This document shows, piece after piece, positions 1 through 56,760 of a stretch of DNA of 64,000 nucleotides (within the stretch, counting starts at the first letter, position 1; each line of letters begins with the position of its first letter). The DNA is from Utricularia gibba (Eukaryota; Streptophyta; Magnoliopsida; Lamiales; Lentibulariaceae). The notes below the pieces were generated by a model that was given only the letters and a program-made list of their open reading frames with translations, was not told where the DNA came from and searched no databases. The stretch spans positions 3,534,001 to 3,598,000 of the forward strand of contig CM007990.1 of assembly GCA_002189035.1 (NCBI GenBank), written 5' to 3'. The position numbers and the translations under genes were made by a program.

Positions 1-656
1 AATAGGAAACTGAAGCAGAACCATGGAGAACGAAGAAGATGAACCAGAAACCAAATCTCAAAATAGTTTTAGCTTTTTCGCATAACTGTTTACTATTCCA
101 GTTATTACTTATTTTATTGTTTTTTTCTTGTTGTTAGGTTGTGGAATAAAGATGATTTTCCTATTATGCCATGAAAGTATTTTCTTTTTTCTTAGTATGA
201 GTAGTTAGTCACTTAGAGGTGTCTTAAGACAAAGAGGGATGAGCATGCTTATTGTTTACTAAATCACACTACTACTTAATTACTCTACTTCTTTAACATA
301 TCAGGATAGATATAGAAGGGGAAAGTAATGGTTTTCATCATAAATAGTCCTAATTAAAAGTAAACAAAAAATTAGGAAAAAAAAAGGATTTAGGTATACT
401 TAAGTCTTTGTTTGTTTGGTGAATGATTTTAGGTTTGGATGAGATAGTTGTAGTGACTAGCATGTTACCCTTGAATGTCCCAAGTTATGATATTATTGTA
501 GAACTCCTATTCCTAACTTATACTAAATTTCCAACAATGATAAAAACAACATGTACCAACATTCACACAACAAGTACATAGCTCTTTGTATTTGACCCTG
601 ATAAATGAAAAATTTGTGCAAGTCGTTAATTTGCAAATTTCTCCTATTAAATAAAT
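1..656. other. AT-rich spacer without recognisable gene
   Basis: I see no open frame of useful length, no transposon domain and no RNA gene here. Short poly-A and poly-T tracts and many stops in all frames are typical of decayed plant intergenic DNA. Confidence 0.5.
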
Positions 657-1770
657 TTATAAACCTAATTCACATCAAGTCATACGAAAAATATGAGCAT
701 AGTAGACTAGGGTCGAACACAAGGAGCTTGGTTCTTGCTATGTGAAGGTCAATGCAAAGAGTCAGTGTCACGTTGGTAAATTTGGTCTTAACTAGGACTA
801 AGGCAGAACTACGACGGAATACAGTAAAGAAAAGTAATAAGTTTTGGAGCTCGGTTGTTTCTGGAATGAAATGGGTGATGCCTTGGGACTCCTAAGGGAT
901 GTATGCTTATCACTAATCAAGCTCACACAAACCACAAATCATGCAACTAACTCACAAGATCTAGGTCTACCCGGACTCTTGTTTTTTCCCCTAATCTTTG
1001 GTCTACCTCTAATTAGGGTTGTTAAGCTGGGTTTCACTACTTCCCCTCCTGAATCTATCCTGATTTGTTAAGGAAGTGGCGTGATTTATGGTTGATTAGG
1101 TCTAAGGATGGATTAGCATATTTCTTCCCTTTTCACCCCAAGGCACCCCCTAACTGCTTAGCCACTCATGCTTAAGACAAAAGACAATAGAAAAGAAAAC
1201 ATCATCCACAATGTACTCATGTCTCAGTCGACTATCAGGAAATAAACAAGCAAGAAACTTAAAACTTCAACAGAAAGCTGGAAATGTCGCTAGCTAATCC
1301 TAGCTAAGAGTAATAATCTTTCGAAAGCAGAAAATAATCTTCAAGCATCAGCTTAGTTCCTGTTCGTCTTCCTCCTTCTTCCTCCCCCAGAAAATCTTCT
1401 CCAGAAAGTTGTCGTGAGTCTCCAAAGGGGAGATCTGCCTTCTCTCTCCATCTTTTCCACCCTTTTGTCCAAAATCTCCCTTTTTCCTCGGATTTTGTGT
1501 GTACTGCTTTTTAGACTTTTGGACTCATCTTCTGCCACTACACTGTGCATATTCGCTCCTTGAGATTTGTGTTGCGACCTGTATTGTATTGCTCAAAGAA
1601 CACTATTACGGTACTTTGCGCAAAAATATAGAACTTGATAGTAAAATCTGATTTTTGTAGCACAATATGAGTAATTTCCATGTACTCAATCACTCAAAAA
1701 TATGTGTTATCAGACCCTGATCCACTATGCTCATATTTTTTGTATGATTGAATGTGAATTAGGATTATAA
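657..1770. repeat. Segment bounded by 58-bp inverted repeats
   Basis: Positions 657-714 and the reverse complement of 1713-1770 match along about 58 bases with few differences (my estimate is roughly 85% identity). Both arms share the core AAAAATATGAGCATAGT followed by a variant of AGGGTC. The interior carries the phrase GGTCGAACACAAGGAG just inside the left arm. A variant of this phrase recurs near 29896 and, more weakly, near 14314. No coding domain is visible inside; the longest frames (844-1071 plus, 1353-1550 minus) resemble nothing I know. It may be a non-autonomous element, or two opposed ends of one repeat family. No target duplication was found. Confidence 0.5.
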
Positions 1771-3104
1771 ATTTTATTTGATACGTGAATTTTTCAATTT
1801 TAACGACATTACTAAATTTTTCTTTCATCAAAGACGCTTGTGATTCAAATTTTTGGTAGACTCTAGCATGTCTTTAAATTTGAATCATAAATTGGCTAAA
1901 GAATTCATGATATAGGACAAGCTCATATTGATTGCCAAAGCCCAAAAACATATAGTTTTATGATTTGGTAGAGGTACCAAGCTCATATTCCTAAAAGCCC
2001 AAGCCTATATTTATAAGCTCACATTGAAAATCATGCAGCATTAAAAAGCATGCGAATGCTTGATTATAAATATGTGGCATTTGGCAAAAAGGAAAGGAGT
2101 TTTTCTTCTTGATAGAGGTGCTTCATCTTCAAGATGAAAAGCAATTAGGAAGGTTTGGGAAGAAACATGACTTGTGAATAGTGATACGAAGAAGAGAACT
2201 CGACTTTGGTTTCAAGTTTGGCAACATTCTTCATTTATTCTCTATAGTTCTTCAGTTTTCTTAGTGGTCAATGTTAATATGATATATTAGTATTGATAGT
2301 GCTATGTTTTCTTGATGGGTCGATTCAAGACTTGAATCAAGAATTCGTGCTAGTATGAGATATTAACGTTGATGTTATTGTGTTTTTCCCAATACATTTA
2401 TTCAAAAGTTGAATCATGTCATCACACCACTTACTTTTCCTAAACTATCTATCTTTAGCATTGATAGGTGTCATTCTTTCATACTACCGCAAACGAACTC
2501 TTGCATTGAAACCAACTGCATTCCGGTTAGTCCCACCATGGTTGAGATCCAACATACTTGGATAGCATTCTGGCTAGTCCATAGGCCTTCAATTGGTCCA
2601 CCAATCCTTCAAGTGTGTGGATGAAAAAATGTAGTCAATCCAAGGGAAGTTAACTAGGGAGTTCTCTAGTCAAACTAAAAGAATGAAAGGGTTGACGATG
2701 ATCAAGGTTTTCTTGTAAATAAATAGATGAGTTTGATTCAAGCATTTGAACAAGAATGTCAATAGGCGCTAACTCAATTGTCTGAAGCCACAAGAAGCTA
2801 CTTTGGTGGGGTTGACATGTCAACTTGGAAGACGAAACTACCCACTTTAGTAACATCGATTTATCCAAGACTACCCAAAGCGTCCCCTCAACTCTAGAAA
2901 GGATCTAGTCTACTCACATCTTGTGGAATGTGGATGTCATAGTCGTTATTGGGAATTTTCTTTCCAATGTAACAATAATATTAGGTTCTCTCCCATCCTT
3001 TTCTTTTCTTGATTGGACCAAGGCACTATTCAATTTCCCAACCCAAGTCTTTCGTCATTTCTGTTGTGGAGCAAAGCTGTCAAAAAATGAAATGAATCCA
3101 AGAA
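1771..3104. other. Spacer, possibly mitochondrial flank in its right part
   Basis: No gene is recognised. Between about 2270 and 2420 there is a loose ~77-bp duplication, with related phrases ending in TTGAATCA at both ends. The stretch from about 2880 to 3104 is less AT-rich and leads without a break into the cox2-derived sequence. It could therefore be mitochondrial DNA from upstream of cox2, but I cannot confirm this by eye. Confidence 0.35.
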
Positions 3105-3762
3105 AATATTGTTCTCTCAAAACCATCGATCCTCACTACCACTCCTTGTGATGCTACAGAACCATTGCAATTAGGATCTCAAGATGCAGCAACACCTATG
3201 CTACAAGGAATTATAGACTTACATCAGGATATCTTTTTCTTTTTTATTCTGATTTTTGTTTTTGTATCATGGATCTTGGATCACACTATATGACACTTCC
3301 ACTATAAATACTATTGAGATTCCATAGACCATATTTCCTAGCATCATTCTTATGTTTATTGTATCATTTGTTTTATTATATTCAATGGACGAGGTGCTAT
3401 GGAATAATGCTGCCATTACTATCAAAGCTATTGGACATCAATGGTATTGATCTTATGAATATTCGGACTATACCAGTTCCGATGAACAACTTTTGATGGT
3501 TATACGATTTCAGAAGATGATCTAGAATTGGGTCAATCACATTTATTAGAAGTGGATAACAAAGTGGTTGTACCAGAAAAAACTCATTTACGCATTATTG
3601 TAACACTAGCTGATGTACCTCATAATTGAGATGTACCCTCCTTAGGTGTCAAATGTGATGCTATACCTGGTCATTTAAACTAGACCTCTATTTCAGTACA
3701 ACGAGAATGAGTTTACTATGGTCGGTGCAATGAGATTTGTTGAACTAATTATGCCTTTATGC
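3105..3762 (+). pseudogene. cox2: Nuclear copy of mitochondrial cox2, exon 1 (NUMT)
   Basis: Cytochrome c oxidase subunit 2 is normally encoded in the mitochondrion. Translating across frames gives a continuous trail of COX2 landmarks: the N-terminal CDA-EP-QLG-QDAATP segment near 3147-3205, the first membrane helix, SMDE, then [10 protein letters not shown], the SYEYS segment, [32 protein letters not shown] and EIC. Exon 1 ends inside the AFMP codons. Two internal deletions of about 36 and 6 bases and several TGG-to-TGA stops kill the frame. The original start codon is mutated, and there is no presequence that could re-target a product. A codon that I recall as an editing site still reads TCT (unedited serine), which argues for DNA rather than cDNA transfer. 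Confidence 0.88.
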
Positions 3763-4490
3763 ATGTGCCCAGAACCATAGGCTGACTGTTGAGCCCACTT
3801 TGGCTCAACCGCATCACCTAGGGTGCAAGCCATTGGAACATCAAGCTAAACCAGCGAGCGGATGGAGCTTTATGGAGCCAAGGAGCAAGGTAATAGATAA
3901 GATAGAAGAAGGGCCCAAGCTGCCAGTGTAGGAGAGGAGATGGTTAGGATAGTGAATTGAGGAGACGGTTAGGATAACGAACTTGAAACGCGGAGTGAGT
4001 GGTTAGTGGTTAATAACACCCTAGTTGATGGCATTCCTCTCTGCGATGAGCACTCAAGGAACCAAGGGACACCCTCCATACAAATCAAGCAAGTCTTAGG
4101 GATGAGACGCCCATGCAAGGACCTCGATTCTCATTTTGAGGTCGAACCAAGTACCTATGGAAGTTGGGGCAACTCCATCCCCATGTGCAATGCTATTGTG
4201 TCCTTGAGGGAGGAGTTTAGAGGCCAACTAGTAGTGCTGACTTCTTCTTTTTTTTTATTGGTAATGCAAAGAAGGCCAGTCCAAGATCGTACTCTTCCTC
4301 TACAAAGACAGGAGACACTCTCAATTCAATGATTTCGATCCACTCTCCTTTTGAGTTCTTCCAGCTTCTTTATGATTTCATCCCATTGAGCGTAATACTT
4401 GAAGTGAGCAAAAGAGGTGAACAAAGAAAAAAAAAAGAGGGTCATCTTGGCTCTAGGAGAAGGACCTGAAACGACAGTTGAACTTCGTCC
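3763..4490 (+). other. 5' part of cox2 group II intron copy
   Basis: The cox2 reading breaks at ATGC (3762) and resumes as CTATCATTG at 10141, which together restore the AFMPI-IVEA junction. The first bases, ATGTGCCCAGAACC, fit a group II GTGCG-type start altered by two CpG transitions (CG to CA, CG to TG). The open frame at 4006-4332 lies inside this intron copy and has no known domain. The copy is interrupted at 4490 by a copia retrotransposon and continues at 9804. Confidence 0.75.
4486..4490. repeat. Target-site duplication, left copy (CGTCC)
   Basis: CGTCC lies directly outside the left LTR and is repeated directly outside the right LTR at 9799-9803. Five base pairs is the usual duplication made by Ty1/copia integrases. 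Confidence 0.85.
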
Positions 4491-4940
4491 GCTTAGAACA
4501 TGCAAGAGAGTAGGATGTTTGGCTATTTGAGGAAAATGTTGGAAATATTGAAAGTGTTATTGAGAAAAATATTGCTGCGCAGCTTGCAATCTTTGGTTCA
4601 GCCATTGGCATTTATAAGTTCCAAAACTAGCCGTTGTTGTGTCCTGTTGTTGCAGCCTGCACTTCATGTGCGTTGGCTTCTAAAACAGCATTCAATTCAC
4701 GTGGGCTGCTGGGTTGTATAGTGGTGTAGTTGGGCTATTGCTAGATCACCAAGGTACTTGGCGGCCCAGAACTCCTGAGCCCATGACCTTTCATAGTTTC
4801 TAGCCAAGCTCCTTCTCTATACATGTTCTTCACAATCGATTCTCCTCTCTCATATGAAATCTCCGATGCTTCGTGTAAATTTCCGGTTAGACATCCACTA
4901 GCCATTGCCCAGTTCTTCACTTCCTCATCAATTACTGACA
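4491..4940 (-). repeat. 3' LTR of copia element 1
   Basis: About 450 bp, matching 9360-9798 as a direct repeat with scattered substitutions and small indels (roughly 80-85% by eye). Shared blocks include AAGTTCCAAAACTAGCC, ACCAAGGTACTTGGCGGCC and CCAAGCTCCTTCTCT. In plus-strand view the inner end is CTGACA, the expected CA terminus. The outer TG has mutated to GC. On the minus strand a purine stretch ending GGGAGAA abuts the LTR, as expected for a polypurine tract. Confidence 0.88.
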
Positions 4941-4969
4941 TTCTCCCGTATGGAGATCTAATCATTTTG

Positions 4970-6290
4970 CTTGCGGAATTCAATCGAAGCCCTAGAAGTT
5001 GATGTATTCTGTAGAAGGTTTTTAGGAATAGGCATTTGGTGAGAATGTCTGCAGCTTGGTCTTCATATGGTATGTATTCGAGCCATATGGAGCCTTCATA
5101 CATAATTTCTGAGCATATGATACTTGATCATAATATGTTTCATTTTGCCAAATATGATTGATTTTTGAGTGATACTGATTTTTGATTTGTTGTCGATTCA
5201 TAGGATTACAAGACTATTAATTTCTATTTTCAGATCTCCTCAGAGCTTAATTAATCATTGCACGTGGTTTGCGGATTCTAAAGGGACAATGTATTCTGCC
5301 TCTATTGACAACCATGCTATGACATCCTGTCTTATACTATTCCAAGCAAACGCCACAGAGCCTAGGTTGAAATGATATCTAGTTGTTGATTTGCAACCGA
5401 TTTCATCCCAAGCAAAGTATGAGTCGACGCATCCCTACTAAATTGAGTTAGTGTCCTTCTTATAGTATAGTCCTAAATTATTTTACATTTTAGATATCTA
5501 AGTATTTTCCTTGCTATTTTCATGTGCATTGTTTGTGGTTTGTGCTATTTTATGTCTAGTCTAGTAGCACTGAGGTATAATAATAAATCAATAAGTTTCT
5601 GATATTCTTGTGTTTCAATAACCTTTGCATGTAGGCTGTTCATCCTTTATCTATCTTAAGGTGAGAAAGGTACCAAAGCTACTTTAGTTTTCTCCATGTT
5701 CAGCCTTTTCAATAGATCCATCATATACTTCTTTTGATTTATAATTATGAACTCTTTATGCTGCAAAATTTCTATTTTAAGGAAGTATCGAGCGAGGCTT
5801 AGATCTATGAGTTCAAATCGTTGCTGCAACAGGTTCTTTTGTTCTGAAATAAACTCTTCGTTATTTCCGTTGTTTAATATGTCGTTGACATAAAGTGAGA
5901 TAATGATCTTTCCTTTTGAGCTTTCGAGCATGTATAATGTAGTATTATTTTTGCTTCGGTAGTATTCTTGATCTGGGAAAAATTTGTCGAGAGTAGAATA
6001 CCACTCTTTAGGTGCCTGTTTGAATTCATATAGAGTCTTGTTAAATTTAAAGACATGCTTTGGATGATCCTTGATGGCGAAGCCGGGTGGTGCTTTCACA
6101 TATGTATCTTCGTTTAGATCACCTTTCAAAAATGTGCTTTTGATATCTAAGTGATGAAGTTTCCATCGATGCAGGCTGATAGGGCTACTATGAGCTTGAT
6201 GGCATTCAATCTAGCAATGAGCACAAAAGTTTCTAGGTAATCTATTTCTGATTTCTATAGATGACACTTTAATACCAACCTAGCTTTGAG
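4970..6290 (-). pseudogene. Copia reverse transcriptase and RNase H remnant
   Basis: The 5656-6129 minus frame (157 residues) has the copia reverse-transcriptase landmarks YVKAPPGF, LYEFKQAPKEWY and the catalytic box, here SLYVNDILNNG. The usual YVDD aspartate pair is degraded to YVND. Farther on, near 5000-5103, ADILTKCL is the conserved C-terminal RNase H phrase of copia polyproteins. Stops between about 5110 and 5650 break the two parts. Confidence 0.88.
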
Positions 6291-7239
6291 CTTAATGAGC
6301 ATCCTGTTGGGGTTTAGTTTGGCTTTGAATATCCACTTAAATTCTAAAGGTTTTGTGTTCTTCGGTCAAGGAACTGCTTCTCATACATTATGGGTGTGTA
6401 TAGATTCCAACTTAGGATCCATAGAGCTTCTTATACGCTATTGGGTTCATGTACTAACAAGCATTGATCAAGGATGTCTTGGAGCAGTTGATAACCCTTT
6501 CTCATAGGTTCATCTTCACGATCATGGGGATTGGTACAAAGATGATGAGGTAGGTAAGGCAAGACTCCTGACTTATACCATAGTCTTTCAAGTAATTTGT
6601 ATTTTCAGAATCAGAAGTAGTACTAGTCTTTTGATAGCATAGGGTAGACAATCCATTGTAGTTGTATCCTTGTGTGGGTTTTGGGCTTCATCTAAAGTGT
6701 CAATATCTCAATCAACATTATCAATAAATTGTACAAGTATTTGTTCTATATCACCCTCCTCACTATTTAAGGATGTAATTTCTAGTATAAATTCCATGAG
6801 ATTTGAAAGTTGTTGGTATGTTTGTTTCATATCATTAACTTGAGCAATGACTTCTAGACTCTAAAGTAAGGATCTAGGTTCCATGAAAGGCATTGAATCT
6901 AGGTCCTATTAGAATATTCCTCATGAGCCTAATGATGTATGAATTTGTTGTTGATTTAACTCATTTGTTGTGACATTTTCATCCAAGATTTCCATCTACT
7001 TAGCAATGTGTTGTTCTTGACTTGTCTGTTTGAGATTGACGTTTTCAGAATTAGTTGTGAAATCCATTGAGGGAAATAAATGTTGAATGGCACTAGAATA
7101 AGAGGACTGATTCTTTGTTTATAATGAGGTATTTCTTCAGTCATAGACTATGTCCTTATCCACTATCATGTCCCGGCTGATTTTTACTTCATTTGTTTGT
7201 AGCTTCAATACTTGTATCCTTTACTTGTATCAGCATATC

Positions 7240-7900
7240 CTAGAAAAATTTCAGGTTCGCATCTTTTATCCCATTTTGTTCACCTATCCTCGGGAATATA
7301 AATGTAGCAAGGTGAGCCGAAAACTTTCACATGATGTAACACCGGGACCTTGTTGTACCAAAGCTCGTAAGGGCTTTTGCTACCCTCATTACCTTTAGTG
7401 AGCAAGCAATTCAATAGATATATCGCAGTGTTTATGATCTCTCCCCATAATTCCTTAGGTAATCTTTTTGGTACAATAGACATGTGGCCATGTTGACTAT
7501 GGTTTGATTTTTCCTCTCAGGGATCCCATTTTGCTCTAGTGTGTAGGGAGTCGTAAACTAATGAATAATGTCATTACTCTCACATAAGTTTTTCAATTCT
7601 AAAGATTTATATTCACCTCCATTGTCATATCTGAAGGTGAGAATTTTTCAGCTATTTTGGATCTCTGCAAGAGATTTGAAGACGTTGAAGTAGTGCAGTA
7701 CCTTGGCCTTGCACGTAAAAAGATATATCAAAGTGTACTTGAAATATTCATCCATGAATATAACGTAATATCTATTTCCTACCCTAGTAGATGTATTCAT
7801 CGGGCTGCATACATCGCTAGTCACCACCTCTATTTTGCCTTGAGAGTGAGCACTGAGTTGGGGAAAGGATTTCCGGTTCATTTTGCATTCAAGGTAGGTT
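7240..7900 (-). pseudogene. Copia integrase remnant
   Basis: Two minus-strand pieces remain. 7648-7881 has the integrase core phrases VVTSDVCSPM and YYVIFMDEYFKYT (normally DVCGPM and FIDDYSR). 7280-7483 has KELWGEIINTAIYLLN, SPYELWYNKVP and VKVFGSPCY, the C-terminal integrase signature of copia elements. They lie in different frames separated by stops. Confidence 0.88.
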
Positions 7901-7994
7901 TGCCATTTTCTTTTAGACTCAATTCTAGTATGTCTTTTGTGAGGTTATTCCTTTTTAGTGTCATGAGAGAGACATAGTGATGGTGTCCAAGTCT

Positions 7995-9340
7995 CTAATG
8001 CCACAACTTGGATTTTTCTATAACTGCAAGACATACATCCTTGATGAGAGGTGACTTTGAGAGCACTAGAGGGAAGATTCTATTAATCATATTGCACATC
8101 AGTATTACGTTGTTCTTAGCATCTTTTATAATAGATATGTTGTGTTTCAAGTGAACTTTGAATCCCTTTTCCTCCAGCTGCCCTAAACTCAATAAGTTGT
8201 GAGATATGCTCGGAATCAAGTACACATCCGAGATTTTTATCAGTTTTTGAGCAATTTCAATGCACACAGTTCCCACACCCAAAATAGGTATCTACTTCCC
8301 ATTTGCAATCTCGATAAATTTTTCTGAGAGATCTATGATATGCGAGAATATGCTTTTGTCATTTGTTAGGTGGTGATTGCAGCCACTGTCAACTAGCCAG
8401 ACCACTTGTTTTTGAAGATCTAACTAGTTTCTCCGATCAATGATCTTAACCTCTACATTGAAGGATACATCATTTTTAGAGTTAACTAGTTTCTCCACAT
8501 GATTAATAATCTCTTGACCCCCCCCCTCCAACTAATGATATTTCTTCAATGGGTAGACATGGTCAACATGACCTTTGAGCAAGTCATAGGCATAGTTTGC
8601 ACCCGGATTCCAAAAGCATTGCAAGGGTGAGTGACCTTTCCATTTGGAGAGAGTGCATGAACTATTTTTGGTATTTTTCTCATGTTTGGCTTGAATAACT
8701 CCTTCCTGAGGAATCTAGTTTTATGAGCTTAAAAGGGCATTTCTGGGTTGTGCAACTGATCAAGAGTATATAGTTTGACTTCCACTCCTTTTAATCCCTC
8801 GAGAAGCTGTTTGGAGCTCATGGACTGAATGTGCCCATCGAACTTAAATGGAGTGAGTGCATATTCAAATTGATGAGGTACAACACTAATGATTTGTGCA
8901 CATAAGCAACTATCTTCTATTTTTTCACCCAAGCACTCGAGACCTCAAAAAATCTTGGGTAGTTTCTTTGAAAAATTAGCAATTGACTGACCTGGCTGGA
9001 TCTTCAATATCTTGTATTGTTTCCATAGTTTAGATATCTCTATTGGTATTGTTTGCGTATCTTTTCCATATATTGAAGCTAGTATATCTCATGTCTCTTT
9101 TGGAGTACTGCAGTTCATAATGAGGTCGTAAGTGTCGCCGATAATAGCTCCATCGAGGATAACTTGAGCTTGATCAGCGTTCTCATCCCAGGCGACCTTT
9201 TCTTCATCTATTTTCCAGCGTAATTTATTGAGACTAACCTGGCTATTTGTGCACTAATGAGGTAGGAAGCCTTGAAATCATTTAGATTGTGACTGATGGT
9301 TTGAAGTCTATGAATAGAAGGTTTTCTGGAAAGAAAGCAG
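7995..9340 (-). pseudogene. Copia gag, protease and pre-integrase remnant
   Basis: 7995-8282 minus carries the pre-integrase phrase YLIPSISHNLLSLGQLEEKG. Just before it on the minus strand, near 8350-8400, VDSGCNHHLTNDK gives the DSG protease motif. 8729-8932 minus resembles copia gag (LLEGLKGVEVKLYTL). The zinc-knuckle region lies around 8560-8650 but is badly decayed. Confidence 0.78.
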
Positions 9341-9359
9341 ATTCATGTCGGGTTCACCA

Positions 9360-9798
9360 TGTTAGAACATGCAAGGTAGTAAGATGTTTGGTTGTTTGAG
9401 GAAGATGTTGGAAATATTGAAAAAAATATTGCTGCACAGCTTACAATTTTTGGTTACAACCACTGACATTTATAAGTTCCAAAACTAGCCATTGTTGTGT
9501 CCTGTTGTCCCAATTTGTACTTCACATGCATTGGCTTCTAGAACAGCATTCAATCTATGAGAACTACTGGAAGGTATAGAGGTGTAGTTGGGCTGTTGCC
9601 AAACCACCAAGGTACTTGGCGGCCGAATACTCCTAGGCTCATGGTTATTCATAGCTTCTGGCCAAGCTCCTTCTCTGTACATGTTCTTCACAACCGATTC
9701 TCCTCTCTCACATGAAATCTCCAATGCTTCCTATAAATTGTTGGTTAGACATCCATCAGCCGTTGCCCGGTTCTTCACTTCCACATCAATTATTGACA
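9360..9798 (-). repeat. 5' LTR of copia element 1
   Basis: About 439 bp, the direct repeat of 4491-4940. In plus-strand view it starts TGTTAGAACATGC and ends TATTGACA, so both the TG and CA termini are intact. Target duplication CGTCC follows at 9799-9803. Confidence 0.9.
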
Positions 9799-10140
9799 CG
9801 TCCATCCTCAATGCAATTCACATAGTGCCTCATCTCTTCACTACATCCATCCTCCCCTTCATCAATCTCAACTTCATTGCAAATGCATTGCATCCAATGA
9901 GTGGAACAACAGTGAAGCGATTTTAGTTGAATGAGATGAAACATAACTACATGTAGTCGATTAAAAAGAGTAGATAAAAGAAAGTCATTTCATGGACCCT
10001 CGCTTTTCAGTGCACCTCTCAACTTACACTATGGTAGAGGAGGTGTCATGAAGATCTAGGTGTGTGAGCAGTATGAGCTAAAAGGCTCCCATACTATTTG
10101 AAGGGTAGAGGGCATTGATGACAAACAATGTGACCCCTAT
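9799..10140 (+). other. 3' part of cox2 group II intron copy with domain V
   Basis: This continues the intron interrupted at 4490. Positions 10066-10099 form a 34-nt domain V-like hairpin. TATGAGC pairs with GCTC and CATA across a bulge, and the base GAGCAG / CTATTT is the usual GAGCCG / CGGTTC altered at CpG sites. A domain VI-like stretch follows (10100-10140), ending in AT just before exon 2. Removing the copia element and one target copy leaves an intron of about 1.07 kb, plausible for a eudicot cox2 intron. Confidence 0.78.
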
Positions 10141-10235
10141 CTATCATTGTAGAAGCAATTCCTCAAAAAGATTATGGTTCTCGGGTATCTAATCAATTAA
10201 TCCCACAAACCGGTGAGGCTTCTCTGTTTTCATAG
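10141..10235 (+). pseudogene. cox2: Nuclear copy of mitochondrial cox2, exon 2
   Basis: The frame reads [19 protein letters not shown] followed by IPQTGEA, the C-terminus of COX2, then SLFS and a stop at 10233-10235. The sequence is well conserved, in the same orientation as exon 1 (3105-3762), and separated from it by the group II intron copy plus the copia insertion. Confidence 0.9.
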
Positions 10236-10308
10236 CATCACCTTTAGAGTTGTGCATTTTGGATGGACCTATATCGGTTGTAGTCTTCTAAGCCTATTTT
10301 GTCAAGAG

Positions 10309-11180
<872 letters not shown>

Positions 11181-11209
11181 AAATACCTATAATTAAATAA
11201 CTAAGATTT

Positions 11210-14200
11210 TTTTTTATATAAATTATCAAAATTAAATTTCACATCATTATGCAGAAGTTTGTTGAGTGGTTAAGAGATTTTTGAAAAATTCTGAATAAAT
11301 TTCTTATAGAAACCAACATGCTCCAAAAAAGATCTCACACTTTCTACATCAATTGGATAAAACAATATAGTCTTAATCTCAATTTTTACCTTATCAATTT
11401 CAATATCTCTTCTAGAGATAATATGACTAAGAATAATACCATGTTTTACCATAAAATGACACTTTTTAAAATTAAGAATAAGGTTCTTCTCAACACATTT
11501 ATGCAATACTTGGTTCAAATGATCTAACATGACTCATAATCTTACTCATTTATGCAAAATCATCCATAAAAATTTTCATAAAATTCTTATCAAAATTGGA
11601 GAAAATATTGATTATACACATTCGAAAAGTAATAGGTGCGTTGCACAACTCGAAAGGTATCCTTTTGTAGGGTAGGCTCCAAATGAACAAGTGAAAGTAG
11701 TTTTGTATTAATCTTTCCCAGAAATAACAACTTAATTATATCTATCCAAAAAACGATAAAATGACTTGGTTATATATAAACATGTCATCCATTTTGGATC
11801 CTTTGTGATACAAGTTCACTTTTCTCATTTTCAACCACTCTCATTCCATTCTTCTTTGGCAACACATGAATTGGATTGACCCACTCATTATCTTTGATGG
11901 AGAAATAATACCTGCATCATGAAGTTTCACAATTTCTCTTTTACCCATTTTATCATGTTTAGTTTGAGATTGATGAACATGTTTGACTCTATCCTCCAAA
12001 AGAATCCTATGCATATATATCGGATATATTTCTTCAATATCCAAGAGAATGTTATGTACCTCGAGTAGCCATTATTCTTGGTCTAAGCTAAAATTATTAA
12101 AGATCATAACATGATTACTCATTTCCTCATCTAAGAAAGCATACTTCAAGTGCATAGGTAGTGACTTTAGTTCAGTTGTTCTCTTCTAAGATTGTAGTTT
12201 GAACAATATTTAACTACTCGCATCTTGTTTTAGCTTCTATTCTGGCAAGTTATTATTACTCATGTTCTTCTTCCATCTCTTGAATATACTTCTAAAAATG
12301 TTGTTCAACTAACTTATCTACAACATCCATTGAACATACACTCTCAAAGTCACTTGAATAGTTGTTCATATTTTTATCTTTAGTATAATCTTGTCCTCAT
12401 CTAAAGACAACTCATTAGTGCTCATATTTAATTATAGAATTTGAGGTGGTTAAAAATTTTCTAAAAATACCAGCTGTTCAATTTTCACCAAAACATTTTC
12501 AACTAGTCCCTTCGGAAAGATTACTTTTCGATCTAATAGCTCTATTTGCACTCACGAAGTTTGTAGAGGACCTAACTTGATAGTCTCATAAATGAAAAAT
12601 GATATTACATTTATTAAGACTCTAGGTTAGGAATGAAAAAGATTTCTAAATCATTGCATTTCTCCTATAGTTTCTAAGAAGAGTTAAACAACTCTGACTT
12701 AATTTCACATTCCCTTTTCATTCAACTTTGGTTTAGATATACAAAGTTGCTTTAGATATTTTATATTTTTCGGTACCAAGTCAATATACTATAGAAGTAT
12801 TAAGTTTGATTGTATGTTATCTAAAGCTTTAATATTTTATATTTCTTGTGCTATTCCTTTTTTGCTTTTAGTCTTCCAACAAATGGAAGTTGTATTACCT
12901 TCAAATCAATAAATTCCATAGCAATCTTTGCATCATTTCCTTATTTCACTACAAATTCATATTCTTCTTCTGCATCAATTTTATTCTTAGGTTGTATTAA
13001 TTTTCTTCCAAGTTTTTCTTTTCAATTTTTTAGTGTCATCGTGCTAATATTTTGTCATCTCCCAAAGTTATGATTCTGCTTAGTATGTGATGGTAAACTC
13101 CCTTTTTGTTTCAATTACCCAACTATTACCAATTGAGTCATTTGAATTTCCAACTTTTTGATTACTTGTTGGTTCTTGACTTACTTCTTGATGGATTGTG
13201 TAATAAATGTTTTCAAGATTTTTGTACAACGAGTTTCCATATTTCCTTCCAACATGGATTTGGATTGAAGGCGGAATTTATTGTTATTGCTTCTGAAATG
13301 GAGAAGCTTGATAAGAACGTGGTCAACTATTGGAAATTTTGTTTGAATCTTTGTTTTTCCATCTAAAATTAAGTTGATCTCTTTATCTTGGATTATATAT
13401 ATTTGAGTAACGATCATACTTTTTCTATGGTTGAGATTCTAGATATCGCACTATCCTTACATGTTCTTCTTCTAGCAAGTCTAGACACTTATAAATAATA
13501 TGTCTCATTCTATAACAATTGTCATAAAGCGTATTCTTAGCTTGTAATAAAAATTATTTTTTCATCATCTTAGACATCGTAACAATATTCTTTGTTACCT
13601 TGCTTTCTAATGTTTTTGGCTTCCTATTGATGCTCTTGGAGTGTTCAGCCAATTCTTCAAGTAAAACTAGAGCTTTCATAGGTGTTTTCTTTCGCAAGAA
13701 ACATCTAGTAGATGAATTAACCATTGCATAATTAGTACAAAGTAATTCATCATAAAAATACTTTATGAAAGAATTAGTTTGAAATCTATGATGCAGAAAG
13801 GGTATTCATAGATGATTGAAACAGTTTCAATATTCATGAAAGGATTCACATTCAATTGTTCAATGTCACTGATTTCTTTTCTAATTCCCTCTATCTTAGA
13901 AGCTGGAAAATACTTAAAAACTTTCTTAAATCCAAACCAATCAATTATGCATTCCATCTTCAGAGAATTAAATCATATTTTTGCACTCCTTCCTTCTAAC
14001 GTGAATTGAAATGCTCTTGAACAAAGAGCATCCTTTTTCATGCTATCACTTTTGAAGGTACATATTGCCATGGCATTAGCCAAGTGCTCATGTGAATTCT
14101 GTCTAATTTTTCCATAAAATTTTGGTATAAAATTGATCATACCTGATCTTAATTCATTGATTGTCTCATCAGAAAATCTAATGCACATCTAATGCCTGGA

Positions 14201-14480
14201 AAATTCTAAATGTGTCGCATACCTATAAGTTTTCTCCATCAAAAAATATTTATACAATTGAACAAATAATCTACATCATATTCATGGATAAAATAATATA
14301 GTAATAGCAAGTCTAGATCGATCCACAGAAATCAAACAGTTTTCAATTGCAAGTCCTACATATAAGCGAAATTAAACTGAGGGTTTTTGTCGAGAAGTGG
14401 GTTTTTACTTTAAAGAATTAGTAAAATTCTTAAAATAGTTTCTACACTAAAAACAAACAATGAAATGAGTAGATCAACTT
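11210..14480 (-). mobile_element. Decayed Ty3/gypsy retrotransposon
   Basis: Minus strand. 11270-11530 is gypsy reverse transcriptase: HLNQVLHKCVEKNLILNF, then KCHFMVKHGI, and VRSFLEHVGFYKKFIQNFSKIS (normally RSFLGHAGFYRRFIKDFSKI). 11841-12044 holds the upstream part: MHRILLED, VKLHDAGII, and a remnant of the SKWVSPVQ block. 13763-14188 resembles gag (CSRAFQFTLEGRSAKI, cf. LFPFSLEG-A--W). Everything between is stop-ridden. The 14280-14480 stretch would be its 5' leader or LTR; no matching second LTR was found, so the limits are approximate. Confidence 0.82.
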
Positions 14481-14543
14481 TTCTGGAAATTTTTACCAAT
14501 AATCTCTAATGGTGGAGCCTAATAGTTTAGTAGGAATAAAGAT
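14189..14543. other. Spacer, repeat-derived
   Basis: No gene. Near 14314 the phrase GATCGATCCACAGAAAT and near 14457 ACAATGAAATGAGTAGATCAAC resemble phrases at 29896 and 29983, which suggests the leader of the same repeat family. The 3' end of the neighbouring CCCH gene transcript also falls here. Confidence 0.4.
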
Positions 14544-16472
14544 TTACTGGGCCATAGGCTGATCAAGCTGCATCTGCTCAAGCCATGCATCTAAAACAGA
14601 CTGATCATCTTTTTCAATGTAATCTGCACTTCCATCAGAAGCCGTACCAGTACTTGCACTTCTTTCTTGTGAGGATTCTTTGACAAGAGAGTGAACCCAT
14701 GATAAATCAGGCTCATCCCCATTGTCACCAAGTTCAGAAGATGCTGATCTTTTGAGTCCACCTGAATCATCACACGTGGTCCAAACAGGCTGCCGGGTAG
14801 GGGATCCCCATCTCAACCAATCTGTCTCTTCTGAGGAGAAAACCGCAGTGTGAGATCCGACGTCTCTTGAGCTGAGACCATGGACCTGATGATGATTCTT
14901 TTCCTGATGCGCTGGCAATGACAGCCGAGAGATTCTGCCAGATGGTGTCTGAAGTAGAGAGTGCTCCATGTTTATGTTTGTCGGAGAAAACTTTGTTCTA
15001 ATGGGAGATAGCATGCCTTGCTGATGCTGCATGAACTGATTTAGGACTGCAGATTTGTGTGTAGGTGCCGTGGCAGATGAAGGCAAAGCTTGATCAGGAT
15101 ATCTAGGTGACGAACTCTCAGCCGGAAAAACATCATCAAGGTTTGAAGGAGTCATGGAGTGTACTGAAAGGTTTGCTGTTTTCAAACGGGACATCTCACT
15201 CACGAGGTGCTGCAGCTGTACATCAACGTCCCGGGCATTCCGAGATGCGTGCAGCCGGCTCAGCTGAAAATTAACTCCGGACAAACTCAAAGTGGGCAGG
15301 TTTTGTTGTTGTGAAGGCCTACCGGAGTTCGGCATTCCATTGTTTGAAGGTGACATGGGAGGAGTAAATAGAGAAGAAGGCATCATTGCGACCAAAGAAG
15401 GGGAACCAGGTAAAGCCACTGCTGCAAAAAAGTCCACCCCATCCGCAGCAGAGCTTGACCGAGGAGAGTGAACACCAGAACCAGTAGACAAATACAATGG
15501 ACGGAGCTCATCTTGGGTGTGGGCAAAGAAGCAAACTCTTCTACTGCAAGCAGTACCATCTTTGCAGGGGCGGGTCCTATATTGTGCTGGATGAAGCCAA
15601 GACTCGAATACTCCATGTGCATATTCACACATATCACCACGTCTGCACGCCCCTTTACGAAAATCAGAGCAAGGAACACAACGGTAGTGGAACTTTCTGG
15701 GATCCCTTCTTCGAGCATTTTCACCAGGATGCACAAATGGGCACTCAGTCCAATCATGTGAGTAGGCTCGGGAACATGGGCGAACTTTAAAAGAGAACAT
15801 CCTGAATTCATCTGTGGAGTAAATGCTGTGCTTGATATCAGGCAAGAGAGGATCAATGGGGTATTCTTTCTTCTCTCTTGCAAAAGTTACAGAAACATCA
15901 GCAAGTTTCAAGCCCTTAGAAAATGCTGTCGAATCTGGGGATTCAATACCTTGGCATGGTGAAGTGGGTGGAGAATCTGAATTTGAATTCGGTGTATCCA
16001 TCAGAGCCCCCACGTCCGGAACAAGCAGCCTTTGAAGTGAACTCTTCATAGACGGAAACTTTGGCGAGACAACAATAACGTCACAAGGGCAACAGCCATT
16101 AGAATCTGATAGGCTTGGATCTGCACCAGCTTCCATGAGCAGTTTCACGATTTCAACGGCATTCATGGTTCCACTAGATGCAGCATAGTGAAGAGCAGTA
16201 CTTTGATCAACACCACAACTTCGATTCACATCAACCTCGGGGAAAGATAACAAAACTTTCACGACACCAATACTTCCAAAAGTTGCTGCTACCATCAAGG
16301 GAGTCATTTGCTGGAGAACCATTTCACTGGAGCCCTTTTTCCGTCCATACCATAGTTCAGCCTCGTCTACGCTTGAAGGCTCACGCTCAACAAACTTCTT
16401 AAAGCCTTCTATATCATTATCGGCAGCCACCTCAAGCAAGAAACCAAGACCCTCTTTACTCGGAGTACTCAT
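14544..16472 (-). CDS. C3H30: CCCH zinc-finger protein with ankyrin repeats, OXS2/C3H30 type
   Basis: Intronless, 642 residues. Two ankyrin repeats lie at about residues 55-87 ([11 protein letters not shown]) and 90-125 ([11 protein letters not shown]). An arginine-rich block [25 protein letters not shown] (233-259) precedes two zinc fingers. C268-x7-C276-x5-C282-x3-H286 and C303-x5-C309-x4-C314-x3-H318 are separated by 16 residues, the plant RR-TZF arrangement. All zinc ligands are present. The C-terminus ([13 protein letters not shown], then [12 protein letters not shown]) matches Arabidopsis OXS2/C3H30 as I remember it. Family knowledge: these proteins bind nucleic acids and shuttle between cytoplasm and nucleus; OXS2 acts in stress tolerance. 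Relative to OXS2 the N-terminus is shorter by about 25-30 residues. The ATG at 16472 is the first in frame. Confidence 0.93.
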
Positions 16473-16477
16473 AACTT

Positions 16478-16540
16478 TTAAAACCAGACACTGCGTGTAC
16501 TTGCAGCTACTTCGCAGATACCCTTACCATGGAAATACAT
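16478..16540 (-). other. uORF in the 5' leader of the CCCH gene
   Basis: A 20-codon frame starting MYFHGKGIC and stopping at 16478-16480, five bases before the main ATG. It sits directly after a good splice acceptor (TGTTCCAG, ending at 16541 on the minus strand), so the leader probably has an intron whose donor lies farther upstream, between 16.6 and 17.3 kb. Translation of this frame would be expected to lower output of the main ORF. The call rests on reading alone. Confidence 0.45.
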
Positions 16541-19132
16541 CTGGAACATGAGAGCATCAAATCAAAGTCAGAAAACAGTTCCAGTGCTAAAAGAAAACAT
16601 CCATACTAGATCAAAGATTGAGAGTTCATAGCCCATAAATCCCAATCAGGTATGAAACAAAGCCACACGCTTAAAGGAAGATTATTTAATCTCTTCTCAA
16701 ATCGGAGCCCTGACTTCATAAATCAAGGGATTTCAGTCGATGAACTCACTCAAATCCAGAAAAAAACAGAACCCTTCTTCATCCCAAATCCGAATATAGA
16801 CAACAGATAGAAAGAAACAATCAAATCATAAAAATAAAGTAGAAGTAAACGATATCATACAAACCGTATACCCCTGCATGCCCAGGAACTCAAAATGGAA
16901 CTCACTTTGGATCGTACACTTGCATAAAACTTCAACAAAATTAAAAGCCAGAACTCACTTTGACTAAATAAAGTTTCCCGCCTACAGAGCATAACACAAA
17001 GACACGAATAGAAACGTCACCCCCTCACCTTAAAACTGTAACATGAAACAAATATAGCGAACCCATCATGAGCATCGACGAAAAGCTTGGTTCTTTTGTT
17101 AGGATACAAATACACAGTTGGAGTCAGTTTCGTCTGGAGACAAAATGATCTGATTCCATAACCTCATCTTGGATTCAAATCAGGAGTTGGACAAAAGAAG
17201 CCCCCAAAATCATCATCAATTTTCTCCGTTATTCCCTCGCATTTTCCTATGCTAACTGAGCTTTTGGTTTGTCTGTTTACTTCGTTCTTCTTCCCTCTTT
17301 GTTTCTTTCTCTCTGTGCGCCCGTCGCAACGGAAGTCACACGTATTTGTTCTGACATGGAAATAAAATAAAACATTTGGAAAAATCAGATTTTAGTCTCT
17401 GCAGTTCTATTCTGTCGTGCGGTTCCCTTTTTTTGTAATTTTTTTAATAAAACAAAAATAGACGGTTTTAAATTCTTTATAGCTTTTTTAAAGCTGCTTT
17501 ACACTGCATCTGGTGCATGCACAAATTTTCATTAAAATTGACCGGCGTCCACAAAAATTGATTTTCGGAAGTCAAATTTGTTTAATTAAAATATCCACAA
17601 TTGACTGGAATTAATTACTGTGGCAGTAAATGGTAAATAATCGAACGGGTTAGATAAATAAATTTCAAGACCATACTCTTATTATTGTTATGATTATTAT
17701 TTTACTGCGGGCGCTGGGGAGGTGGAGGGCTAGTAACTTTTGGTTAAAAGAATAATAATATAAATGGGGTCTAGGGTCATTTTCAATAATTACCTATTCC
17801 ACCACCACATCCATTTTTCTACCCTCACTCCTGACGGTAAAACCCCTAAAATTAATATCTTAACCGCCGGTCATTTTATTTTGTATTTAATGTGAAGATA
17901 GTACGACCGAGCTACTTGAAAATGGTGAAAAGTATTTTGATGTCTTTCTTTTCCCTTTATTAACGTAGCGGGTTTACGATTGATTTCTACTCCACAAATT
18001 ATTTTAATATAATTAAATTTTCTGATAAAATCAAATATAATAAAAATTATAAAATAATGTTTGGAATTCTTATATAAATTATTCATTTTTTGGAATACAA
18101 AAAATGAGAAATAGCGTTTTATAATTAATACTATGTATATTCATAGTTATTAATAATTATACTACATAAATCATTTAGATTATCAACCCTAATATATAAA
18201 TCTTATATTATATTTTATATTATAATAATATTTTCAATACACTTGTATTTGAATCACAATATAAAAAGTTGAGGTATTTTAATATTATATCATAATTTAT
18301 TCCAAACTATTATAATTGAACAAATATATCATTATTATTTATAAAAAATACAGGCATAATTCTAAATTTTGTCTCATAATTAATTTTAAAAATCAACATT
18401 AACAGAAATTTAGTTGATATTTAAGAGATTTTTTTAAATAAGAATTAATTTTCTTAAAAGATAAGTAATTTTTCAAATACAACCCCAAACATTCATCGGT
18501 TGTAATTTTATTTTTACAAGCTATATGAATCTAAATCGAATAAGCATAGTTGAACATAATTTTCGAAAAATCTTATACATTTTTTATTTTAATAAAAAAT
18601 TGAATTATAATTTGTTACATAATAATCATAACTATCTGGTAAAATACGAATCAAATAGCATATAAGAATAGACATCTAAATAACAACTGAGGAGGACAAA
18701 TGATTCAAATTTTTCGACATATGAAAGGTGAACATGAATAGATAAATCTTCCGTCCATCATGAACATAGAACTTCATACTTAAAAATATAGTACCAAATC
18801 TATTCAACACCATGCATTCATATTGAGTAAGAAAAGTTATTTTATTAGATAAATATAATATTATTTTTTATTCGTTTCTTTCTCTACAAGTAATGTTATT
18901 CAGTAAGAAAAAAAAAAGAAATTAAGCATTCAACAAATATTTTTGTAAATCATGGTATTCTACAAATTAATTTTTTGTAGTGGGCTGTTTTGAAAATTTG
19001 CTAGCCCAACCTCTTGAAGCCCAACTGTGCAGAACTGGGATGTGCCCAGAAACAGCAATACTGATTTTCATTCTTGTAGAAAGTTAAATCCCTCTTCTTT
19101 CTTGTGTCGCCGTCTTGTTTGCCGCCGCTTCG
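16541..19132. other. Promoter/leader of CCCH gene and AT-rich spacer
   Basis: The part up to about 17.35 kb is of mixed composition with pyrimidine-rich stretches near 17270-17330. It probably contains the leader intron and promoter of the minus-strand CCCH gene. From 17.4 to 18.95 kb the DNA is very AT-rich with no domain or convincing frame; 17871-18086 minus is low-complexity. No RNA gene was seen. Confidence 0.45.
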
Positions 19133-19237
19133 ATGAAAACCGATCCGATGGCTGCCGCTTCCATACCCCGAGTCGCCCAAGTGGAAATCGGCGCAGCCAC
19201 CAGTAAGCATTGTGGTTACGAATCTGTAGTAGAATGA
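19133..19237 (+). other. Upstream ORF or leader exon before the MEF1-like gene
   Basis: A 34-codon frame beginning MKTDPMAAASIPRVAQVE in the more GC-rich DNA upstream of the PPR gene. A five-codon frame (19437-19454) ends in TAA directly abutting the PPR start (TAAATG). CACCAGTAAGC at 19198-19208 could be a splice donor of a leader intron. Function unknown; it may simply be 5' untranslated sequence. Confidence 0.35.
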
Positions 19238-19454
19238 ATTTTTCTCTCTCTATAGTTACCATGATTGTCTCGTTCTCTTTGTTTGTCCTTGATAGCTGTT
19301 CGGATTATGTGTAGAGCTCATGTTGATGAACAAGTCACGAGCTTGGCGTCGGTTCACAACTGTTTACTTCGTTGCAGAAGCTTCTGTGAATGTGGACTGC
19401 GCAGGGCACTGGATGGTTATTGAGTTTTTTTGTGCTATGGTGAAATCTATGTAA

Positions 19455-21284
19455 ATGCTTCAACTTTCACTGGAGAAGCCCACCGAGCAGCCGCGTTCAT
19501 CTCCTATCCGTGAAAGAGCACAGAATTTGCTGAACCAGAAGAGCTTTGAGTTGAATTACCGAGTGATATGTGATCACTTGGTGAAGTTCGGTAGCCAAAA
19601 GAATCTTCTCCAAGGCCAATCTTTTCACGCCCACATCATTAAAAATGCGTTTCATGTGATCCCTCTTGTTTGCCACCATTTGATCAATTTCTACTCGAAG
19701 CTGGAGCAACCATATAGATCGGAGCAAGTTTTCATTGAAGCCGGAGTTAAATCTTCACCTACTTGGAGCTCGATCATATCGAATTTCGTAAAGAATGAAC
19801 TTCCTGTTCGTGGGCTTGAGTATTTTAAGTTAATGCTGAAGAATAGTGGGACATTTCCCGATGATCATTCTTTTCCTTGTGCAACCAAAGCCTGTGCTAT
19901 GATTGGTGACACCTTTATGGGGAAATTGGTTCATTGCGTATCGGTTAAAACCGGTTTCGATGTGAATGTTTTTGTGGGAAGCTCAGTAGTGGATATGTAT
20001 GCTAAATGCGGTAAGCTGAGTGAAGCAAGGAGAATGTTCGATGAAATGTCAGAGAGGAATGTTGTTACGTGGACTTCTTTGATTTATGGCTATTCCCAGG
20101 TGGGGCAGGATGAAGAAGCATTAATGCTCTTTAAGGATGCATTCCGTGAAGATATCGATGCCAATGACTTCACTTTCTCAAGCATCATCCGGGTTTGTGG
20201 GAGTTCCACATTGCTCGGTTTAGGGAAGCAAATGCACGGACTATGCTTGAAGTTGGGCTATGATGATACTAGCTTCGTGGGGAGTTCTTTAACCTCTATG
20301 TACTCAAAAAGCGGTATCATCAGTGATGCTTATCAAGTCTTCAATGAAGCTTCTGACAAGAATTTGGGGATGTGGAATTCAATGTTGATTGCTTGTGCTC
20401 AGCATGCACGCACCAAAGATGTATTTGACCTCTTTGGTAGAATGGAAAGCACGGGTGTGAAGGCAAATTTTATCACCTTTCTCTGTATTCTCTATGCTTG
20501 TAGTCACTCTGGTTTAGTGGAGGAAGGTAGATACTATTTCAGTATGATGAATAAGCAGGGTATAGAGCCTGGAAGTGAGCATTATGCGTCGATGGTGGAC
20601 TTGCTCGGACGAGCCGGGAAATTAGATGAAGCCATGAAACTGATTGAAGAAATGCCGATCCCACCTACAGAGTCTGTATGGGGAGCTATGTTGACAGGTT
20701 GTCGAATTCACAGAAATGCAGAGTTGGCCAGCTATGTGGCAGATAAGGTGTTTGCATTAGGAGCTGTTAGCCCCGGCCTCCATGTCATGCTGTCCAACGC
20801 TTACGCAGCTGCAGGGCGATACCAGGAAGCAGCCAATGCGAGAAAGCTGCTAAGGGACCGCGGACAGAGGAAGGAAACTGGTTTGAGTTGGGTTGAGGAC
20901 GGGAACAGAGTTCACAAATTCGCTGCTGGGGACAAGCGGCATGAACTCTCAGTTCAGATATACCAGAAGCTGGATGAATTGCTGGGGGAAATGGAGCGAG
21001 CCGGTTATGTTGCAGACACAACTTACGTCTTGAAAGAAATTGGAAGGGAAGAGAAGAATGAGGCCATCAGGTATCACAGTGAGAGACTCGCCATTGCCTT
21101 TGCGCTCATCAGATTCCCTCCCAAACGGCCCATCGTGGTGATGAAGAACTTGCGCATGTGCGGCGACTGCCATGCGGCCATAAAGTCGATGTCCAAGTGC
21201 ACAGAGAGGGTGATTACTGTAAGAGACAACACTCGGTTTCATAGATTCGAGGATGGCAAGTGTTCCTGTGGTGACTACTGGTGA
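19455..21284 (+). CDS. MEF1: DYW-class PPR protein, mitochondrial RNA-editing factor MEF1
   Basis: Intronless, 609 residues. PLS-type pentatricopeptide repeats run from about residue 30 to 430 (FVGSSVVDMYAKCGKLSEA, NVVTWTSLIYGYSQ, then GLGKQMHGLCLKLG). E and E+ motifs follow (ESVWGAMLTGCRIH, LSNAYAAAGRYQEA, GLSWVEDGN). The C-terminus is a full DYW deaminase domain with H541-S-E543, C569-x2-C572-H573, H596, C603-x-C605 and the terminal D-Y-W. The match to Arabidopsis MEF1 (At5g52630, 588 residues) is close along the whole length. MEF1 directs C-to-U editing at rps4, nad7 and nad2 sites in mitochondria. The start is fixed by an in-frame TAA immediately before the ATG. Confidence 0.94.
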   Translation: MLQLSLEKPTEQPRSSPIRERAQNLLNQKSFELNYRVICDHLVKFGSQKNLLQGQSFHAHIIKNAFHVIPLVCHHLINFYSKLEQPYRSEQVFIEAGVKSSPTWSSIISNFVKNELPVRGLEYFKLMLKNSGTFPDDHSFPCATKACAMIGDTFMGKLVHCVSVKTGFDVNVFVGSSVVDMYAKCGKLSEARRMFDEMSERNVVTWTSLIYGYSQVGQDEEALMLFKDAFREDIDANDFTFSSIIRVCGSSTLLGLGKQMHGLCLKLGYDDTSFVGSSLTSMYSKSGIISDAYQVFNEASDKNLGMWNSMLIACAQHARTKDVFDLFGRMESTGVKANFITFLCILYACSHSGLVEEGRYYFSMMNKQGIEPGSEHYASMVDLLGRAGKLDEAMKLIEEMPIPPTESVWGAMLTGCRIHRNAELASYVADKVFALGAVSPGLHVMLSNAYAAAGRYQEAANARKLLRDRGQRKETGLSWVEDGNRVHKFAAGDKRHELSVQIYQKLDELLGEMERAGYVADTTYVLKEIGREEKNEAIRYHSERLAIAFALIRFPPKRPIVVMKNLRMCGDCHAAIKSMSKCTERVITVRDNTRFHRFEDGKCSCGDYW

Positions 21285-55273: not shown

Positions 55274-55614
55274 GTGAAATAGCACTACTGTAAAAAGCAA
55301 TTAGTTAAATAGCATGCTTTCGGAAATCATTTGTGAAATAGCACTTTTATACATTATTTCAAATCAAAAGATATATAATGGACTAATTAAAACATATATA
55401 TTAATTTCGTTTTATTAATCACAAAAATGTATAGAAATATAAAAACATCAACATAATATATATTGAATCGTAAAAATATATATTTGATTAATACATGTAT
55501 TTTAATCAGATCAATATATATTTTTAATCTAAAAAACTCATAAAAATGCTATTTGACAAATAATTTTTAAACATGTACTATTCAACAAATTACTTTATGT
55601 CAGTGTTATTTCAC
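55274..55614. mobile_element. Fold-back MITE with internally repeated arms
   Basis: The left arm begins GTGAAATAGCAC (55274) and the right arm ends GTGTTATTTCAC (55614). Reverse-complementing the right arm gives a match to the left over roughly 110 bases. Each arm has three related units about 30 bp apart: GTGAAATAGCAC at 55274, GTTAAATAGCATG at 55304, GTGAAATAGCACTT at 55333, and their counterparts on the right. The middle is AT-rich and non-coding. No clear target duplication was seen. Confidence 0.78.
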
Positions 55615-56760
55615 TAATTTACTCTTACGAGCACTGCCACGACCGGCGATTACGGATGCGAGTTACTGTTGAAATTTAACTTAAAGTCATGTTAAATTTT
55701 ATGCTTTATTTACTTGGATAATGTTGTAAAATTTATTTATGATGCTAGTTCTGCAATTACATAAAAAACAAAAAATATATTTTTCTCTCCAAATGATATA
55801 AAATACTGAAATGCAAGGTCGGTAAAAACAATCTACAAGATTGATAAAAAAAAATATGTGTTTTATAAGGTTGACATTATAAATAAATTTACTCTCTGCA
55901 GCATTGTATGAATAAGTGTTGTTTATTCATGCTACCCTTCGGATTAGCACACAAACCCACGGTACCAATGCACTCACCCAGGGCTGGGTCTGCCTGCCTG
56001 CCTGCTTGGGTAGACGACGATCAGGGATTGAGCAGGGCCGCAGTAAGCAAGATTATGAGGGTTTCATAAGCTGAGAATTATTAGGTCCAAAGTAAATGAT
56101 CATACTCAATACTCCTTATTGGTGCCGTGCCTGGCAAATTTGGAATAGCTGCCTGGCCTGTATTCTTATAAATATATTTTAAGTCATGATATTATTAAAC
56201 AAAAATATTCATATTTACACATAGTTAATAATAAAGGATAAAATAGTTTTTAACAAAAGAATAAGTTAAGATATTCAAATTCTAACAAATTAATTTTTTA
56301 ATTTTTAATACATATATCAAATCAATCACTACATACTTACAAATGACTATTAAGTTCATTAACTTATAAATCAATAATAATAAAAATAATGCAAAACACC
56401 CTCATTGCCTTCTAATTCCTTTCCATTCAACATGTGTTCACACATACACTGCCAAACCAATTAGGAGAGCCCCGGCCCAGCATACACTATGATATTATAC
56501 TATATTATATTGATACTGACGGGTGTTGTAACACATATATACCACATACGCACACACCCGTTGCTCTCGAGGGTGTTTTCTATTAAGCCAACCAAATTCA
56601 AAGGAAAAAAATGTCAAGTAACATTAGTTAATGCATGTGGAAAATGTGATTGAAATTTCATAGGGTTACTGCTCGGCCGACGCGGAGGAGAACGTGAGGG
56701 GAGGAAATAGGAATGGACCTGACCTGACTTGAAGGGTGCAGAGTGCCAATCAGTCCGCAC
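55615..56760. other. Spacer
   Basis: No gene. A short (TGCC)n-like run is at about 55990-56006. The rest is AT-rich, with a mixed-composition stretch at 56640-56760 directly outside the Mutator-like element. Confidence 0.4.

Follow-up and report, generated by a model that had tools for sequence, protein, structure and literature searches.

Plant NUMTs and NUPTs are colinear stretches of organelle DNA in nuclear chromosomes that decay by C>T and G>A change, are fragmented and occur in association with transposable elements (review PMC7037861). MTPTs are plastid fragments resident in the mitochondrial genome. The functional nuclear cox2 transfers of legumes lack introns at the organelle sites and are edited as well as expressed. 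The group II intron cox2i691 occupies a late position in cox2, after the codons HAFM plus one base (PMC10012718, PMC4045975).

The locus described here lies in a window of 64,000 nucleotides of Utricularia gibba (C2:3534001-3598000), part of the 6.19-Mb contig C2. It was compared with two contigs of the same assembly, one taken to be mitochondrial and the other to be plastid DNA of this plant. The mitochondrial contig C515 (267.5 kb) carries an uninterrupted cox2 exon 1 (open frame of 284 aa; PF00116, E 3.3e-54) and also cox1; the plastid contig C516 (172.5 kb) holds the rbcL region. The locus is almost certainly a NUMT that was transferred as DNA from the mitochondrion, decayed in the nucleus and was then split by a Ty1/copia element. 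It belongs to a known class, NUMTs that contain an MTPT and are interrupted by an LTR retrotransposon, and is of low novelty, with no new mechanism. From plant NUMTs and NUPTs it shows no difference in kind, sharing all the features named above, and its layers of events are readable against the plant's own organelle contigs. In common with MTPTs, C515 features an rbcL-atpB region about 96% identical to the plastid contig over 2.5 kb, but part of this stretch has here gone further and entered the nucleus together with mitochondrial DNA. The cox2 intron sits at the cox2i691 position, and the mitochondrial copy has the GTGCG start and an RF00029 domain V, whereas the intron in the window is decayed, split and nuclear. 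With the legume transfers (Vigna COX2, 7jro_b) the locus shares a cox2 sequence in the nucleus; unlike them, it is a DNA-level pseudogene.

Extent and nuclear setting of the mitochondrial DNA

The two parts of the NUMT, 2416-4490 and 9804-11188, are end to end colinear with C515:55590-59247, as judged by local searches and a global alignment. Identity is about 90% in the cleanly aligned parts, and the three pieces match C515 in blastn with E values of 0, 0 and 4e-167. The sequence-only reading had placed a mitochondrial cox2 with its intron, split by a copia insertion, at 3105-10235. Comparison with the organelle contigs of the plant itself agrees with this identification, and similarity to C515 was found throughout, both parts of the intron included. 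The extent was too short: mitochondrial homology runs from 2416 to 11188 and takes in a plastid-derived rbcL fragment at the right end, which had been overlooked. The mitochondrial comparison partner is the plant's own C515, hence a single species, and an origin of the NUMT in a close relative is formally conceivable. In the assembly searched, the only cox2 matches besides C515 are the two pieces inside the window. No further organelle homology was found at 11500-19500 among the best 40 of 279 candidates scored, and none beyond the NUMT was reported at 19500-64000 against 10-kb and 3.5-kb mitochondrial and 4.5-kb plastid stretches, the sole comparison partners there.

The nuclear location is apparent from the 6.19-Mb contig, from dispersed nuclear repeats on the flanks and from decay biased to CG and CHG contexts. 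A short way to the left of the NUMT lies a high-copy dispersed repeat with inverted terminal repeats (window 599-1830), of which dozens of copies occur at 80-87% identity.

Table 1. Features of the locus (window positions) and of the Mutator-like element found elsewhere in the assembly
Feature	Position	Strand	Basis or remark
NUMT left end, mitochondrial DNA upstream of cox2	2416-3105	+	C515 about 55590-56360; blastn of 2416-4490 vs L026:3590-5780 (C515), E = 0; alignment
cox2 exon 1, pseudo-exon	3106-3762	+	PF00116, 4.3e-31 and 5.1e-4
cox2 group II intron, 5' part (cox2i691 position)	3763-4490	+	Alignment to C515
Target-site duplication CGTCC, left copy	4486-4490	+	Single in mitochondrial DNA
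LTR (3' LTR in element orientation)	4491-4940	-	82.6% identical to 9362-9798 over 449 columns
Ty1/copia internal part, decayed; reverse transcriptase fragment at 5656-6210	4941-9359	-	PF07727 RVT_2, 6.1e-42; PF22936 Pol_BBD, 5.2e-9 at 7995-8291
LTR (5' LTR in element orientation)	9360-9798	-	LTR alignment
Target-site duplication CGTCC, right copy	9799-9803	+	Alignment to C515
cox2 group II intron, 3' part	9804-10140	+	Alignment to C515
Group II intron, domain V-VI	10064-10140	+	RF00029, 31.0 bits, E 0.004
cox2 exon 2, aligned part	10141-10222	+	Alignment to C515
Mitochondrial DNA between cox2 and plastid-derived piece	10226-10311	+	59 bp shorter than C515 across direct repeat
rbcL fragment of plastid origin, resident in mitochondrial DNA (MTPT) and carried along in the NUMT	10312-11188	-	90.4% to C515 (piece from 10226), 89.8% to C516
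Mutator-like element copies	L058:1255-6506 (C213); L059 and L060; also C409, C321, C1	minus for L059 and L060	Mitochondrial piece at L058:5117-5441

Decayed cox2 gene and its group II intron

In C515, exon 1 of cox2 measures 706 nt and ends ...TTTATGC; the intron is 1072 nt long, with the ends GTGCG...AT, and exon 2 begins CTATCGTCG. In the window, a 1-nt deletion breaks the start ATG of exon 1, which in addition carries deletions of 35, 6 and 7 nt and seven in-frame stops. Because of these stops, the lost start codon and the frame-breaking deletions, the nuclear copy is a pseudogene, and the NUMT is very likely functionless today. At L026:4690-4710, the mitochondrial cox2 reads MDEALWNSPAI compared with MDDVVVDPAI in the Vigna COX2 chain (7jro_b), and the nuclear copy has most of the unusual bases too.

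The intron ends in C515 fit the 5' GUGYG and 3' AY motifs of this intron type. The window reads ATGTG at 3763 and AT at 10140—the 5' motif being lost in keeping with the mutated start that the sequence-only reading had proposed. The putative domain V it had recognized aligns with that of the mitochondrial copy and differs from it by three transitions. At the gathering threshold, Rfam gave no match anywhere in the window; RF00029 was seen only in a permissive search, its 31.0 bits lying under the gathering score of 40, as expected of a decayed copy, and the C515 homologue scoring above it with 47.2 bits. A second intron near codon 125 (cox2i373) is found neither in the window copy nor in the intact gene of C515, which bears out the proposal that the source cox2 lacked the other angiosperm intron. 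Since it is missing from both copies, its loss would most simply predate the nuclear transfer. In the nuclear intron, some 30 bp (GGAGACGGTTAGGATA...) appear to be locally duplicated at about 3945-3990 of the window, which is not the case in C515.

Past exon 2, C515 holds two nearly identical stretches of about 38 bp (L026:6183-6330), and the window, 59 bp shorter there, holds one; the mitochondrial cox2 frame continues beyond its usual GEA end. The shorter form was rejected as an ancestral repeat-less state: with the mitochondrial order X-Y-X-Z and the order X-Z in the window, deletion between the repeats in the nuclear copy is simpler.

Route of transfer, copia insertion and order of events

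The transfer took place at the DNA level, since the intron and flanks are present and most cytosines predicted to be edited are still C. With the COX2 protein chain of another plant species (7jro_b) as the edited reference, nine C-to-U sites are predicted in mitochondrial cox2, and the window retains C at seven of them. This is stronger than the single apparently unedited codon from which DNA-level transfer had first been proposed. The two sites that read T, in CG and CHG contexts, are what could be expected if a cox2 transcript had been reverse-transcribed into the nucleus, but the intron, the upstream noncoding DNA and the opposite-strand rbcL piece were all transferred as well, and together with the unedited sites they leave such an RNA route a vanishing probability, unless one transcript, neither spliced nor edited, covered the entire piece. 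Just as little room is left for an assembly artefact, in which mitochondrial reads were merged into a nuclear contig. Over 3288 aligned sites, NUMT and C515 differ by 242 transitions and 76 transversions (C>T 105, G>A 100), and the transition share falls from 31.8% in CG and 24.8% in CHG to 6.4% in CHH contexts and 2.1% at A/T. A misjoined mitochondrial read would not have this bias, which therefore argues against misassembly, as do the divergence of about 10%, the seven stops, the many indels and the copia element with its target duplication, all inside a 6.19-Mb contig. The pattern is that expected from cytosine methylation in plant nuclei, which would be its cause; a C/G to T/A bias is described for the NUPTs of 17 species (PMC6376042).

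The junction of cox2 with rbcL is present in C515, where the plastid-derived stretch is at least 2.5 kb long (L026:6369-8874) and 96.0% identical to the plastid contig; a 7-bp deletion and site differences tell the copies apart. The deletion, relative to plastid rbcL, is common to window and C515, and the two agree against the plastid at eight sites. At two of the eight, a further nuclear copy of the plastid rbcL region agrees with them, and these two are probably changes in the plastid. At six sites, four of them transversions, C515 has changed and the window retains the plastid base. This further copy (L028:1829-4148, that is C2:3011829-3014148) lies about 520 kb from the window and agrees with the plastid, not with the mitochondrial copy, at the 7-bp difference. 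Organelle insertions often lie side by side in plants, and this other insertion, nearer to the plastid form and on the same contig, could be taken to suggest that the rbcL piece is a NUPT that came straight from the plastid to lie beside a cox2 NUMT. The shared junction and deletion refute such a separate origin unless C515 is chimeric, and two insertions are accordingly very improbable. The same 7 bp missing from the mitochondrial and the nuclear rbcL point instead to a route from plastid to mitochondrion, with some divergence there, and as part of a mitochondrial segment to the nucleus, which would be the simplest history. A relay through three compartments in one locus—plastid rbcL joining mitochondrial cox2, diverging there, and both moving to the nucleus after the loss of cox2i373—is very probable.

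The insert in the cox2 intron is 5.3 kb long and was recognized in the sequence-only reading as a copia element. It features paired LTRs of 450 and 439 bp and, on the minus strand, a fragment of a copia-type reverse transcriptase (PF07727); GC stands at the outer end of the left LTR and TG at that of the right one. CGTCC occurs once at the empty site of C515 and twice in the window, around the LTRs. With the element and one CGTCC removed, the junction reads through as mitochondrial DNA, so that exon 1, intron and exon 2 are colinear as had been claimed. No further copies of this LTR were found in the 100 Mb of assembly searched. A full element with a target duplication implies integration in nuclear chromatin. 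Together with the empty site, this makes it most unlikely that the mitochondrial copy had carried the element before it was transferred, a history for which nuclear retrotransposon fragments in plant mitochondrial genomes provide a precedent (PMC5855769).

The NUMT came first and the copia element later, as follows from their nesting. The earlier claim that the locus dates this order holds for the order itself but gives no interval between the events. The K2P distance is 0.100 between NUMT and mitochondrial DNA and 0.177 between the LTRs—0.088 per branch, with a poorly aligned patch removed. The ratio of LTR to NUMT divergence is 0.89 (bootstrap 95% 0.66-1.18), or 0.74 for transversions only (0.38-1.27). 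The clocks are compatible with the nested order, but the divergences overlap and a separation of the two ages is not significant. If rates of 1.3e-8 to 2.5e-9 per site and year are assumed, 7 to 40 million years result, values that follow from these rates and are not claimed as ages.

In the preferred reading, one piece of mitochondrial DNA of about 3.5-3.7 kb, comprising the upstream DNA, cox2 including its one group II intron, and the earlier-acquired rbcL fragment, was joined as DNA into a nuclear chromosome, presumably by end repair. There it would have been methylated, it was eroded by C>T change, and a Ty1/copia element later entered the intron, producing the 5-bp target duplication. If the relay is true, the locus places the capture of plastid DNA, the loss of the intron, the move to the nucleus and the copia insertion in relative order. 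It also sets a lower time bound for the loss of cox2i373 and the capture of rbcL in this lineage, and is a well-documented case of stepwise DNA flow among three plant genomes and of nuclear methylation eroding organelle DNA.

Mitochondrial fragments in a Mutator-like element

The search with cox1 led outside the window to an element of about 5.25 kb that is dispersed in the nuclear genome. It has a MuDR-type transposase domain (PF03108, 5e-6) and, as judged by eye in three of its copies, is flanked by duplications of 8-9 bp. In six or more copies, which are 92-97% identical, three mitochondrial fragments that come from separate parts of C515 are joined together: 166 bp of a cox1 exon, a 123-bp stretch located about 3 kb off on the other strand, and 39 bp of a different region. 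A relative at L061 (C304) lacks the mitochondrial piece. Judging from these copies, the element reads as one that acquired mitochondrial DNA and was then amplified. A literature search for a transposon with captured, amplified mitochondrial DNA returned nothing specific, which is weak evidence of novelty. In C515 itself (183401-186200; L052:853-2541, minus strand), a probable group I intron (RF00028, 30 bits, under the gathering score) interrupts cox1. The intron frame runs on from exon 1 into a LAGLIDADG-like endonuclease, as judged by eye, and we take the intron to resemble the mobile cox1i729 intron.
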